Virus record (IMG/VR): IMGVR_UViG_3300037485_002668
Coordinates: 35,245-99,244 of that record
Length of the DNA: 64,000 bases
Origin: a virus
Strand: one strand, 5' to 3'
Part shown: one piece after another, positions 29,460-33,244 of the stretch
How the letters are laid out: each line of letters opens with the position of its first letter
Position numbering within the stretch: position 1 is the stretch's first letter
Made by a program: the position numbers and the translations under genes
Notes under the pieces: generated by a model
What the model saw: the letters and a program-made list of their open reading frames with translations, nothing else
Database searches by the model: none
Told to the model about the DNA's origin: nothing

Positions 29460-29726
29460 TTAATCACCAATTTTTTCAGATATCTTTTTTAATTCGCCGG
29501 CAAACCATATAAATTCAGTATTTTTGGCTGCTCTGTCTTCCAGCATATTACTTAATATTTCTAGTTTTTGTTTTGCCCACGACAGCCGGTTCTTTCTCGA
29601 AATGTTTTTCGATAATTCAGTACTAATAAATTCAAATGCCCAGGATGGTATTTCAAAAAATCCGACTTCAGGAATTTTGTTTAAAGGATAGCCATAATTT
29701 CCGGGATAAAATTTGATAGTTTCCAT
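29460..29726 (-). CDS. Small helical protein, unknown
   Basis: 88 residues; residues 25-85 look helical and charged. It lies just downstream of the type IV-B-like operon but beyond hairpin element 6. A small helical protein near csf genes invites comparison with Cas11, but it is shorter than usual and outside the hairpin-bounded cassette, so the link is weak. Confidence 0.6.
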   Translation of the reverse strand: METIKFYPGNYGYPLNKIPEVGFFEIPSWAFEFISTELSKNISRKNRLSWAKQKLEILSNMLEDRAAKNTEFIWFAGELKKISEKIGD

Positions 29727-29743
29727 AATAATTCCTGTTTTTT

Positions 29744-29780
29744 GCTGTCAATCATCATTCCACCCAGGCAAGCTGGGTGG
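29744..29780 (-). repeat. Dispersed hairpin element 6 (downstream end of csf cassette)
   Basis: Perfect stem CCACCCAG/CTGGGTGG, loop GCAAG, full GCTGTCAATCAT flank. It closes the cysH end of the type IV-B-like operon. Confidence 0.95.
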
Positions 29781-29804
29781 TGTGGATTAAATTTTTTTAT
29801 ACCT

Positions 29805-30548
29805 TCAAAGATAACTTCTGATTTCAGGACATTTCGTAACTAAAAAATTGAACTGCTCAGGATAGTTCCGTTTCAAAAACAGATAAAATCCACGCTCGCC
29901 AATACTTAAAATATACCAATTTACACGAATCCACTCACGTTCCGGAATCGTATTGGCTTTTAAATAAATCGGATGGTATTCGTAGTCCGAATGAGTTATA
30001 AAAGAAAAAATATCATTGGCGTCTAAATAGGCGACGGGATAACAACTAAAAGCCTTAAAAGATTTGTTAAAAAAATAAGTGCCATTGACGCCAATGGTCA
30101 TTTTACGGGCACGGCTTTCCTGAACCCGGATCCCGGTAATCACCAGGTCATATTCCTTGTTCGTATTCCACCAGGGTTTTAAAATTTCCTTATTGACTTT
30201 ATTAATCGCCGTCAAATCAAAATACCCGGCCGTTAACTTTGCAATCAAAGGGTCAATCTTGGGATTAATTTCCCTTAAATTAAAGCCCAATTTTTCAGCG
30301 GCGGCCTTTACAAATGAATCAGTTTCAGGAAATTCGTAACCACTATTGAACCAAACCAACTCAGGCGTAAGGTTCAACTGTTTACACAAAATCGCACAGG
30401 TCAAGGAGTCTTTGCCGCCGCTAAAAGACAACGCTATTTTCTGTTTATTTTTACTGGCATTCTCCAGGATCAATTTGGCCCGTTTTATTTTTAGCATGAC
30501 CCGATTATTTTGATAATTCATCAAATCGAATTGCGTAAATTTATGCAC
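29805..30548 (-). CDS. cysH: CysH-like PAPS-reductase family protein of type IV-B module
   Basis: 247 residues. FSGGKDS (S43-S48) is the PP-loop ATP/PAPS site and GIRVQESRAR (139-148) matches the GIRxxES(R) motif of the family; YLDANDIFSFI is also typical. The gene starts 3 bp after csf3 and ends the operon. CysH-like genes are the characteristic companion of type IV-B CRISPR loci, where their role is not settled. Sulfate assimilation is unlikely here because no other cys genes are near. The AT-rich composition is shared with csf1-csf3. Confidence 0.85.
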   Translation of the reverse strand: MHKFTQFDLMNYQNNRVMLKIKRAKLILENASKNKQKIALSFSGGKDSLTCAILCKQLNLTPELVWFNSGYEFPETDSFVKAAAEKLGFNLREINPKIDPLIAKLTAGYFDLTAINKVNKEILKPWWNTNKEYDLVITGIRVQESRARKMTIGVNGTYFFNKSFKAFSCYPVAYLDANDIFSFITHSDYEYHPIYLKANTIPEREWIRVNWYILSIGERGFYLFLKRNYPEQFNFLVTKCPEIRSYL

Positions 30549-30551
30549 GGT

Positions 30552-31307
30552 CTACGCCCTGGCCAATGGTTTCAACTTAGTACCCGCAGGATATGAATTT
30601 ACTGGCTTTGAATTTATACCATAATACGGCGGACAAATTGGGCGCATTTCTATAAAATCATTTTCAGGAAACCAGCCTTTTTGTTTACAATAATCGACAG
30701 GCAAAGGACGCATTAATTTATCATAACGCATTAATGCAAAAGACGAATTGCCATTTTGTTTTTCAATTTCCCAGGTACATTCACCCCAACCGACACTATG
30801 CTTTTTACCGATATGAGCGGGATTGGGGATTATTTTTTTCAGCAATTCGATATTGCCTTCGCCAAAAATTTTATAATGCTTACGGTCAGAATATAAAGTT
30901 GGCATCAGATACGATTTAAAATCGCCTTGTTGGACGGAAACGCGTTTTGCATTTACCGAATTTAATAGTCGCTTTTCAAAACGTTTAGTCCAGTAAGTTG
31001 ATTTTTCAGGCAAATCAAAGAGATAACTACACATATAAAAAAAAGTATCTTTAAACTGGACTTTAAAAAGTGGAATCGTAATGGGCACCAACTCATCATG
31101 ATCATAACTCAAATTGAAATAATCAGATTGCAATACGTAAAGCATGGTATAGTGTGCAATCACCGAATCAAACGCCAAAATATCATTGCCACTGCGACCT
31201 GTTTTAAATTCAAGATGAATGATAAAATTTTCATTCAGTGCGCTTTTACGGGTCAGATTATTCCAATTTTCGACTTTGTTTAAAATTGAAGGTTCTAATT
31301 TTCGCAA
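30552..31307 (-). CDS. csf3: Csf3-like (Cas5 family) type IV CRISPR effector subunit
   Basis: 251 residues. IGKKHSVGWGECTWEIE (166-182) matches the conserved glycine-rich (I/F)GKKRxxGYGxV segment of Csf3/Cas5-type RAMP proteins. The C terminus has EMRPICPPYYG and a basic end. It lies 11 bp after csf2 and 3 bp before cysH, the order expected for subtype IV-B. Cas5 proteins cap the RNA 5' end in effector complexes. Identification is by motif and order together; either alone would be weaker. Confidence 0.8.
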   Translation of the reverse strand: MRKLEPSILNKVENWNNLTRKSALNENFIIHLEFKTGRSGNDILAFDSVIAHYTMLYVLQSDYFNLSYDHDELVPITIPLFKVQFKDTFFYMCSYLFDLPEKSTYWTKRFEKRLLNSVNAKRVSVQQGDFKSYLMPTLYSDRKHYKIFGEGNIELLKKIIPNPAHIGKKHSVGWGECTWEIEKQNGNSSFALMRYDKLMRPLPVDYCKQKGWFPENDFIEMRPICPPYYGINSKPVNSYPAGTKLKPLARA

Positions 31308-31318
31308 GGTAGCATCCG

Positions 31319-32506
31319 TTATTTTTTTAAATTTAACTGGTTCAGAGTGGCTTTAATTGCATCGCGCTGATTTGTTAAAAATGAATTTGCTAAAGTCGGA
31401 TCTAATTGCTGATCGTAACAGACGTTAATTTTCCCAAAACCCGCCCGGCTCATGCCACCGATTTTTCCATCTTCAGCAAAGAGAGTTAGCATCAAATGCA
31501 AAAAGGCGGTTTCAACTTCATTCAAATAAAAATGATCAACCGACCAATTAAACAGACAGCCCGCTTCCATCGCCAAAATAGAATAAAACATCTGAACATG
31601 CGAACCGCCCAATTCAGCCTGCCATTCTGGCGTAATAGCACCTTCATAATCATCTACCCGCGTCATGAAATATTCTTTAAGATAGCTAATCGCAGGCCGG
31701 TCATTCTGGCCGTTTTCCATACAATGTAAATGGGCAAAATTGACATTTATTTTGCCGGGCAAATCTTCGTTTCCAATCATGGCGCCTAAAATAGACAAAA
31801 ACGGCAATTTTTCACGTAGCTCCCGTTTGGTTGCAATATCCACAAATCCAGTCGATTTGGTTAACATACCGCCGCTAAAAAGAGTATGGTAAGCTTTCGG
31901 TTCATAAATTTGATGGGGGTCGGCGTTCTCAAAAACAATTTTTGTGACATAAGCCATAAGTTGATCCCGCATCCGGCCACGAATTGAATTGCCTGGGATA
32001 GTCGGAACCAAGAAGTCTGATTCGGTAGTAAGGATGTCTTCAGAAATAACGAACCCCTCGCGGAAATTGAAGGATTCGGTTTGGTAAATGGCCGCAGCTA
32101 CGAACAGATCAATATTTTCACGCGCCCACTGAAGAATGTTCAAATTTTCATCTTTTGAAAGTCCGAAAGCAAATTTAGTGGTATATTGATAAAAAGACGG
32201 CTCCGCTATTGGCAGGTGTTTTAAAAGATTAGTAAAAAATTGGGAGATCGTCGAGCTACACAAAGCGGCAAACACACGATCCCGAAACGCTTCGGTAAAT
32301 GAACGGGAACCAAAATTATCTTTATTGCAGTTACGATAAAACGAACCGACACATTTAATAAGCTCTTCAGCGATTTCTTTTTTAATAACAATCGTTTTTT
32401 TTGAATGCGGGACATGAATCATATAGGGAAGCTGAATGTTCCCCGATTTATCCCCACCTACGAAAACAGGGTCAATTGCGGTAATCGTTGCGTTTATTCT
32501 GGACAT
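31319..32506 (-). CDS. csf2: Csf2-like (Cas7 family) type IV CRISPR backbone protein
   Basis: 395 residues. FLVPTIPGNSIRGRMRDQL (PGNSIRG at 170-176) is the Cas7-family motif seen in Csf2 and Csm3/Cmr-type RAMP proteins, and GGMSRAGFGKINV (350-362) is the C-terminal glycine-rich segment. HTLFSGGMLTKS and SILGAMIGNEDLPGKI also fit Csf2. It overlaps csf1 by 13 nt. Cas7 subunits coat the guide RNA as a filament. Type III Cas7 was considered, but the csf1 zinc protein and cysH neighbours favour type IV-B. Confidence 0.85.
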   Translation of the reverse strand: MSRINATITAIDPVFVGGDKSGNIQLPYMIHVPHSKKTIVIKKEIAEELIKCVGSFYRNCNKDNFGSRSFTEAFRDRVFAALCSSTISQFFTNLLKHLPIAEPSFYQYTTKFAFGLSKDENLNILQWARENIDLFVAAAIYQTESFNFREGFVISEDILTTESDFLVPTIPGNSIRGRMRDQLMAYVTKIVFENADPHQIYEPKAYHTLFSGGMLTKSTGFVDIATKRELREKLPFLSILGAMIGNEDLPGKINVNFAHLHCMENGQNDRPAISYLKEYFMTRVDDYEGAITPEWQAELGGSHVQMFYSILAMEAGCLFNWSVDHFYLNEVETAFLHLMLTLFAEDGKIGGMSRAGFGKINVCYDQQLDPTLANSFLTNQRDAIKATLNQLNLKK

Positions 32507-33183
32507 GTTTTTACCTCTTCTGTTTTGATTTTATAAAGTGAATTAACCATTAATTTAAATTGTTCCGTATGTCGGACGGGTTGTAATTTTTTATAATCCG
32601 AAAAACTTAGGCTGTACTTTTGAAATTTCCAGGGTGGAATCGTACCGGCCAGCAGTTCATCTTTGGTACATTTATTTTCATAAAATGATTTTGCGATTTT
32701 ATAAAAATCAAACCACCGGGAGCGTTCAAACTGGATATTCAAGTTGTCAGTACAGACGTAAAATAATGCTGAATTATGTGAAACAAGCGACTTAAAAGCA
32801 ATATGTTTTTTCCCGCTCTGGCTAAAAACCAGAATAAACGGCGGGTTAAACGAATGTTCAAATAGATAGAACGGCTTTTCACTAAAGTCGATTTTAATAA
32901 ATTGATTGTTTTCTACCAGGTACGAATACAATCGCAAGCCACACCGCGCACCTTTGGGGCTTGCCAGGCTTTCATCGGAAAGTGAAAAAACGCAAAAATC
33001 ACAAAGTACGTCGGATTGTTTGTACCTCAGCATATTATAATCGGTAAAGTTGCCTGAAAAAATCTCTTTAGCTTTACGCCATTCTGACATGATTCGCGTG
33101 CCACCACATAGACAGCAGGTTTGGTCAGAATCGATTCCTGGCTTTTGCGTGATGGCGGTTACGATAAATTCTGTGTTGGTCAT
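32494..33183 (-). CDS. csf1: Csf1-like (Cas8-like) type IV CRISPR protein
   Basis: 229 residues. CxxC at C23-C26 and C61-C64 form the zinc finger seen in Csf1, and the length (~230) is typical. The C terminus (KYSLSFSDYKKLQPVRHTEQF) is basic and helical. It is the first gene of the operon, directly behind hairpin element 7. A nine-codon leader starting in the element, MIDSQKEAT, ends with a TGA overlapping this ATG. Between csf1 and csf2 there is no room for the cas11 gene normally found in IV-B. Confidence 0.8.
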   Translation of the reverse strand: MTNTEFIVTAITQKPGIDSDQTCCLCGGTRIMSEWRKAKEIFSGNFTDYNMLRYKQSDVLCDFCVFSLSDESLASPKGARCGLRLYSYLVENNQFIKIDFSEKPFYLFEHSFNPPFILVFSQSGKKHIAFKSLVSHNSALFYVCTDNLNIQFERSRWFDFYKIAKSFYENKCTKDELLAGTIPPWKFQKYSLSFSDYKKLQPVRHTEQFKLMVNSLYKIKTEEVKTCPE

Positions 33184-33197
33184 GTGGCCTCTTTTTG

Positions 33198-33234
33198 GCT
33201 GTCAATCATGATTCCACACGGGCAGGCCGTGTGG
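33198..33234 (-). repeat. Dispersed hairpin element 7 (upstream end of csf cassette)
   Basis: Perfect stem CCACACGG/CCGTGTGG, loop GCAGG, full flank. It lies 14 bp before csf1 and forms the start side of the type IV-B-like cassette. Confidence 0.95.
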
Positions 33235-33244
33235 TGATATTGGG

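Follow-up and report, generated by a model that had tools for sequence, protein, structure and literature searches.

A phage-borne, array-less type IV-B-like CRISPR-Cas operon with a probable Cas11 domain nested in Csf2

What do type IV-B CRISPR-Cas (clustered regularly interspaced short palindromic repeats and CRISPR-associated) complexes bind, and what do they do? A subunit fusion encoded by a phage gives a new handle on this question. We have analyzed a stretch of 64,000 nucleotides (nt), hereafter the window, which covers positions 35,245-99,244 of the IMG/VR record IMGVR_UViG_3300037485_002668 (99,244 base pairs (bp) as a whole). An earlier, sequence-only reading of this DNA had described a tight csf1-csf2-csf3-cysH set, and the four open reading frames (ORFs) are indeed intact and closely packed, lying head to tail on the minus strand as one operon in which csf1 and csf2 overlap by 13 bp and gaps of 11 bp and 3 bp separate csf2 from csf3 and csf3 from cysH. 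The operon has no separate cas11 gene. Its Csf2 is about 100 residues longer than usual, very probably because Cas11, the small subunit, lies within it.

The assignment of the operon as type IV-B-like is close to certain on its protein matches. The profile search that the sequence-only reading had proposed as a check returned the PADLOC type IV models for Csf1, Csf2 and Csf3 and a Pfam family for CysH (Table 1), and every motif that it had named was located: two zinc-ribbon CxxC pairs in Csf1 (Cys23/26 and Cys61/64), PGNSIRG in Csf2, GKK...GWG in Csf3, and SGGKDS with RVQESRAR in CysH. The NCBIfam csf1, csf2 and csf3 models all match at scores far under their curated cut-offs (cas8u_csf1 on Csf1, 1e-10), as would fit a divergent member. 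A better match to type III, or the lack of a Cas fold, had been named as what would speak against the assignment. Type IV Cas7 models outscore type III Csm3 models on Csf2 by about 30 orders of magnitude in PADLOC, and a fold search with an AlphaFold2 (AF2) model of Csf2 (predicted local distance difference test score (pLDDT) 78) placed type IV Csf2 chains at the top, above Csm3. The closest solved Csf2 folds in that search are from type IV-A (PDB 7xg1 and 8rfj), and the best solved relative by sequence is 7jhy, a IV-B complex. Relatives were retrieved from IMG/VR by alignment of the window Csf2 with two haloarchaeal Csf2 proteins, which gave 16 Csf2-encoding loci. The window proteins share 38% (csf1), 41% (csf3) and 48% (Csf2, residues 8-391) identity with those of L013, the locus with the nearest Csf2.

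In standard IV-B loci, cas11 is a separate gene (PMC8175902), and in all six plasmid loci used for comparison a gene of about 130-160 amino acids (aa) separates csf1 from csf2, which encodes about 290-310 aa. In the window, the additional residues lie between 'IQLPYMIHVP' and 'LVPTIPGNSIRG' and split the Cas7 fold in its first beta-hairpin; in the AF2 model of Csf2 they form six helices (43-139) flanked by strands 29-40 and 160-170. PADLOC Cas11_0_IV matches this insert at 9e-4 in a protein scan and at 3.6e-5 in a genome scan, where it is the sole match of the model; no other Cas11 candidate was found in the genome. A custom Cas11 profile, based on 12 free-standing Cas11 proteins of viral and bacterial origin, was searched against 1747 ORFs. 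The window Csf2 ranked alongside genuine Cas11 proteins (E 2.3e-4, residues 46-136), with a score that none of 2000 shuffles of the insert attained. Inserts stand at the same site in the window phage, in three IMG/VR viral contigs (L013, L020 and L037) and in a bacterial genome, G407. Compared with Cas11 by hhalign, the window/L013 insert reached a probability of 86% and the L020/L037 insert 95%, with shuffled columns at 1.2% or less. PADLOC Cas11 models matched L013, L020 and L037 at 1.6e-3, 1e-7 and 1.9e-6, respectively, and the G407 insert matched the free-standing Cas11 profile unambiguously, at 5e-16. Modelled alone with AF2, the window insert gave a pLDDT of 84 and a predicted template modelling score of 0.81. 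Foldseek then ranked the IV-B Cas11 chain 7jhy_g first among 350,542 PDB chains, albeit weakly (E 1.2, probability 0.35; next 0.14 or less).

No single test on the window protein suffices, and we read the insert with confidence as a nested Cas11 because PADLOC, the custom profile, hhalign and the fold search agree and because relatives carry an insert at the same site. Several points weigh against this reading. Taken singly, the Cas11 matches of the window protein are modest (E values of about 1e-3 to 4e-5, and the Foldseek values above); with E<=1 as the limit, the PADLOC Cas11 model also finds matches in 8 of the 14 control genomes; and one of 2000 shuffles of the L013 insert equals the real score. 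The inserted helices could instead be an unrelated helical domain, with the small subunit absent or supplied by the host. This would suit the weak individual scores of the window protein, the Foldseek E value included, and the failure of the two insert lineages to match one another directly (hhalign 0.4%). Such a domain is nevertheless improbable, given that two independent profile sources both return Cas11, that shuffled controls score low, that the same-site insert of G407 is itself a Cas11 by profile, and that the genome offers no other candidate.

Table 1. Features of the csf operon and its edges, in window positions
Feature	Position	Strand	Details
csf1 (Cas8-like large subunit)	32494..33183	-	229 aa, ATG start; PADLOC Csf1_0_IV E 9.7e-29
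csf2 (Cas7 backbone subunit, with probable Cas11 inserted)	31319..32506	-	395 aa, ATG start; PADLOC Csf2_0_IV 2.7e-36, residues 155-392
Probable Cas11 (small subunit) domain nested in Csf2	32066..32389	-	residues about 40-147; PADLOC, custom profile, hhalign, Foldseek
csf3 (Cas5-like)	30552..31307	-	251 aa, TTG start; PADLOC Csf3_0_IV 8.1e-24
cysH-like ATP pyrophosphatase	29805..30548	-	247 aa, GTG start; Pfam PAPS_reduct 8.7e-18, over cut-off
Leader hairpin before csf1	33196..33235	-	14 nt ahead of csf1 ATG
Leader hairpin after cysH	29742..29781	-	ahead of 88-aa ORF (29460-29726); far module edge

The fused form is rare in this sample. Among 396 genomes around the phylum of genome G016, a Csf2 match was found in three, with an insert within the match only in G407, and in most of the other viral loci cas11 is separate. 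The Csf2 tree supports one group of the window and L013 (100/100) and another of L020, L037 and G407 (100/98); a single origin of the fusion is neither rejected nor demonstrated (p-value of the approximately unbiased test (p-AU) 0.14 to 0.24). Gene order varies as well, being csf3-cysH-csf1-csf2 in L013 and csf1-X-csf2/cas11-cysH-csf3 in G407, where csf1 and csf2 are separated by a gene of 252 aa, here called X. G407 holds two copies of its fused type IV-B operon (L045:3887-8059 and L046, on contigs C4 and C5) that are 99.9% identical over 4,789 bp, which suggests recent movement. One of these copies lies next to a large gene that resembles type II restriction genes. Cas11 was seen in yet another placement, the third, at L025:6701-7879, where the C-terminus of Csf1 includes a Cas11-like stretch (PADLOC Cas11_0_IV 1.3e-3). 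With Cas11 encoded on its own, within Csf2 or in fusion with Csf1, the small-subunit architecture of type IV is more fluid than described so far.

In type III-E, several Cas7 domains stand in tandem with Cas11 in a single effector. Cas7 and Cas11 are joined in one chain in the Cas7-11 proteins of types III-E and III-I (PMC12669027), whereas the window Csf2 has one Cas7 domain per chain and one Cas11 within a beta-hairpin, and its Csf1 and Csf3 are separate. Type IV-A, with which the window shares the Csf2 fold, has an array, Cas6 and DinG, none of which was found here, and has no Cas11. In type IV-C the large subunit is Cas10-like with an HD domain, a role held by Csf1 in the window. The nearest comparison is the type IV-B system of Mycobacterium sp. 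JS623 (PDB 7jhy, PMC7937560), which likewise has csf1, csf2, csf3 and a cysH-like gene, the same Csf2 fold, and no array, cas6 or obvious nuclease, but which encodes Cas11 as a separate gene instead of an internal Csf2 domain. The sequence-only reading had assigned the operon the gene content of IV-B. This stands for csf1, csf2, csf3 and cysH and fails for cas11, and since the separate gene is missing we classify the operon as a variant of IV-B rather than a standard member. The IV-B complex of known structure consists of a Csf2 filament and, running along it, a Cas11 filament (six Csf2 to five Cas11), assembled on RNA that is uniform in length and mixed in sequence, and IV-B lacks subunits for target cleavage (PMC7937560).

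Carriage by a virus has precedents. IV-B has been reported in Fuxivirus, viruses of Bathyarchaeia, in a study that also cites type IV for prophages and several lytic phages (PMC10848311). Like the window, Fuxivirus encodes csf1, csf2, csf3 and a CysH of the IV-B branch; unlike it, Fuxivirus infects archaea and has a mini-array, and its Cas11 is treated as a protein in its own right, whereas the window has no mini-array and a nested Cas11. The operon is phage-borne, as the sequence-only reading had emphasized, but with Fuxivirus and the 16 IMG/VR loci on record the location alone is no novelty. Viral IV-B is thus already known, and it is the Cas11 nested in a single Cas7 for which we found no report in the literature searched, the surveys Pinilla-Redondo 2020 and Moya-Beltran 2021 being outside its scope and possibly mentioning one.

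A search of the whole 99-kb genome revealed no CRISPR array or array-like repeats, and one Pfam model per Cas family gave no Cas1, Cas6 or DinG-type helicase over the same span (Cas2 was not searched). The absence of array, cas1, cas6 and DinG noted earlier for the 64 kb therefore extends to the full genome. No arrays or mini-arrays were found in 25 stretches around type IV loci (some overlapping), no nuclease domain was found in the csf operon, and Rfam gave nothing above threshold; a weak match to SNORD70 inside cysH is due to chance.

The best explanation as a whole, to which we assign a probability of roughly 0.6, is a phage-borne, array-less IV-B variant whose RNA would be loaded in trans and whose action would favour the phage or prophage. 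Csf2-Cas11 units would polymerise on short RNA, the fusion holding backbone and belly at a ratio of 1:1 and forcing their co-assembly, and Csf3 and Csf1 would sit at the ends of the filament. As there is no obvious nuclease, the filament would act by binding. As the phage has no array or RNA processor of its own, it would take up guide-sized RNAs from other sources, host CRISPR RNAs (crRNAs) or other small RNAs being the likeliest, and for this capture in trans, taken by itself, the balance is likewise somewhat favourable. CysH would spend adenosine triphosphate (ATP), through alpha-beta cleavage and adenylyl transfer, to modify the nucleic acid in the complex. Overall, guides would be withheld from host immunity or rival elements silenced, and the role as an anti-host or inter-phage weapon suggested by the sequence-only reading is possible. 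It counts against this explanation that we infer the step from structure to role.

CysH retains the PP-loop SGGKDS and RxxESxxR and lacks the ECGxH catalytic cysteine motif, which is also absent from all 15 CysH relatives checked. For type IV CysH without the catalytic cysteine, an alpha-hydrolase or adenosine monophosphate (AMP)-transfer role has been proposed (PMC8175902), and the motifs of the window protein are in line with ATP alpha-beta hydrolysis or AMP transfer. Several type IV CysH proteins (L013:6480-7229 and relatives) have SFGKDS in place of SGGKDS, a variant that may mark a change of substrate or a loss of activity.

Two other accounts of the RNA deserve weight. A filament that binds crRNAs or small RNAs unspecifically, disarming RNA-guided defence of the host as a means of counter-defence, is a hypothesis laid out in PMC8175902. 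It is possible, if doubtful: the carriage by a phage and the missing array fit, as does the finding that the RNA of the solved IV-B complex is unspecific and uniform in length (PMC7937560), yet the conserved CysH is left unexplained and the unspecific binding seen in Escherichia coli may be an effect of overexpression. RNA-guided interference, in which host-made crRNAs are loaded and competing plasmids or superinfecting phages are silenced without cutting, as in IV-A, we also regard as rather unlikely. The Csf2 fold is closest to that of IV-A proteins from RNA-guided complexes, for which nuclease-independent repression is established (PMC11519345); the phage has an integrase, making a prophage stage with rivals to exclude plausible; and the Fuxivirus IV-B locus has its mini-array (PMC10848311). 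The absence of arrays and mini-arrays from both the genome and the 25 stretches speaks against such guidance, as does the lack of any Cas6 or DinG match, and the RNA in the one purified IV-B complex was mostly of non-CRISPR origin even though crRNAs had been supplied (PMC7937560). The fusion itself bears on these questions, since a single-chain Csf2-Cas11 means one component fewer and a fixed filament ratio, so that CysH and three structural proteins are enough to make the complex. The fusion also permits a clean test of what Cas11 contributes to RNA binding or length control.

The operon also lies between two copies of a phage leader element (Table 1). This 40-nt element consists of an 8-bp hairpin followed by AATCATGATTGACAGC and occurs in 23 copies genome-wide, all on the minus strand, with 21 in the window, including the two at the operon edges, and 2 in L003. 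Its stem covaries: 97.8% of stem cells are paired and 6 of the 8 pairs show changes on both sides, against 52% or less in slid controls. In 16 of the 23 copies, no more than about 25 nt separate the end of the element from a start codon, and the element precedes many other phage genes, the terminase among them. It is not in Rfam, and an exact-pattern scan of the viral collection gave nothing beyond chance matches, among which are the DNA-pattern matches at L010-L012. Stem-loop cassettes flank swapped modules in T4-like phages, and by analogy the leader element may resemble these.

As L013 lacks the element and many other phage genes are preceded by it, the hairpin is unlikely to be part of the type IV system. 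A complex that regulates phage RNA by binding transcripts of the phage itself at the 23 hairpins could draw on their covariation, on their position ahead of phage genes and at both operon edges, and on the want of another RNA source in the genome; it is very unlikely, for the locus with the nearest Csf2 lacks the element, the exact-pattern scan returned only unrelated chance matches, and an ordinary regulatory or boundary function readily accounts for the hairpins. We give next to no credence to the nested Cas7-Cas11 being a distinct phage/host type IV lineage that forms an obligate 1:1 double filament on leader-hairpin RNAs and is RNA-guided without an array.

The guanine-plus-cytosine (GC) content of the operon is 0.384, compared with a genome mean of 0.447 and with 0.50 and 0.52 in the adjacent glycosyltransferase-type genes 33245 and 28714; no more than 2.7% of genome windows have a GC content this low. 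This AT-richness relative to genome and neighbours suggests acquisition from elsewhere, and, set between two leader hairpins, the operon looks like an acquired module under phage control. Its location under the leader element in an integrase-bearing genome points to inter-element conflict and not to cellular housekeeping. The 88-aa ORF beyond cysH has a GC content of 0.33 and no family match, and could be part of the acquired module.

The phage genome is probably complete, since the ends of the record are identical over 127 bp (an exact direct terminal repeat, record positions 1-127 = 99118-99244). Its genes include those for a major capsid protein, portal, large terminase (TerL), RNA ligase and integrase, and a 2734-aa minus-strand ORF is probably the tail tape measure. 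The nearest terminase is that of a Thermoanaerobacterium phage (48%), and no close relative of the phage was found; single-protein scans of IMG/VR with the window Csf2 and TerL as queries gave no relatives, and tblastn of Csf2 against phage records gave no match. The operon is flanked by glycosyltransferase-type and methyltransferase genes. Elsewhere in the genome, L002:5315-6493 encodes an adenylosuccinate synthetase homologue that matches the phage 2-amino-adenine (Z-base) synthetase family phrog_1211 at 5e-52, making modified DNA possible. At L003:1760-2761 lies a gene for a transcription activator of the sigma-54 type that has a Fis-type DNA-binding domain; such a protein is unusual in a phage and may control phage genes.

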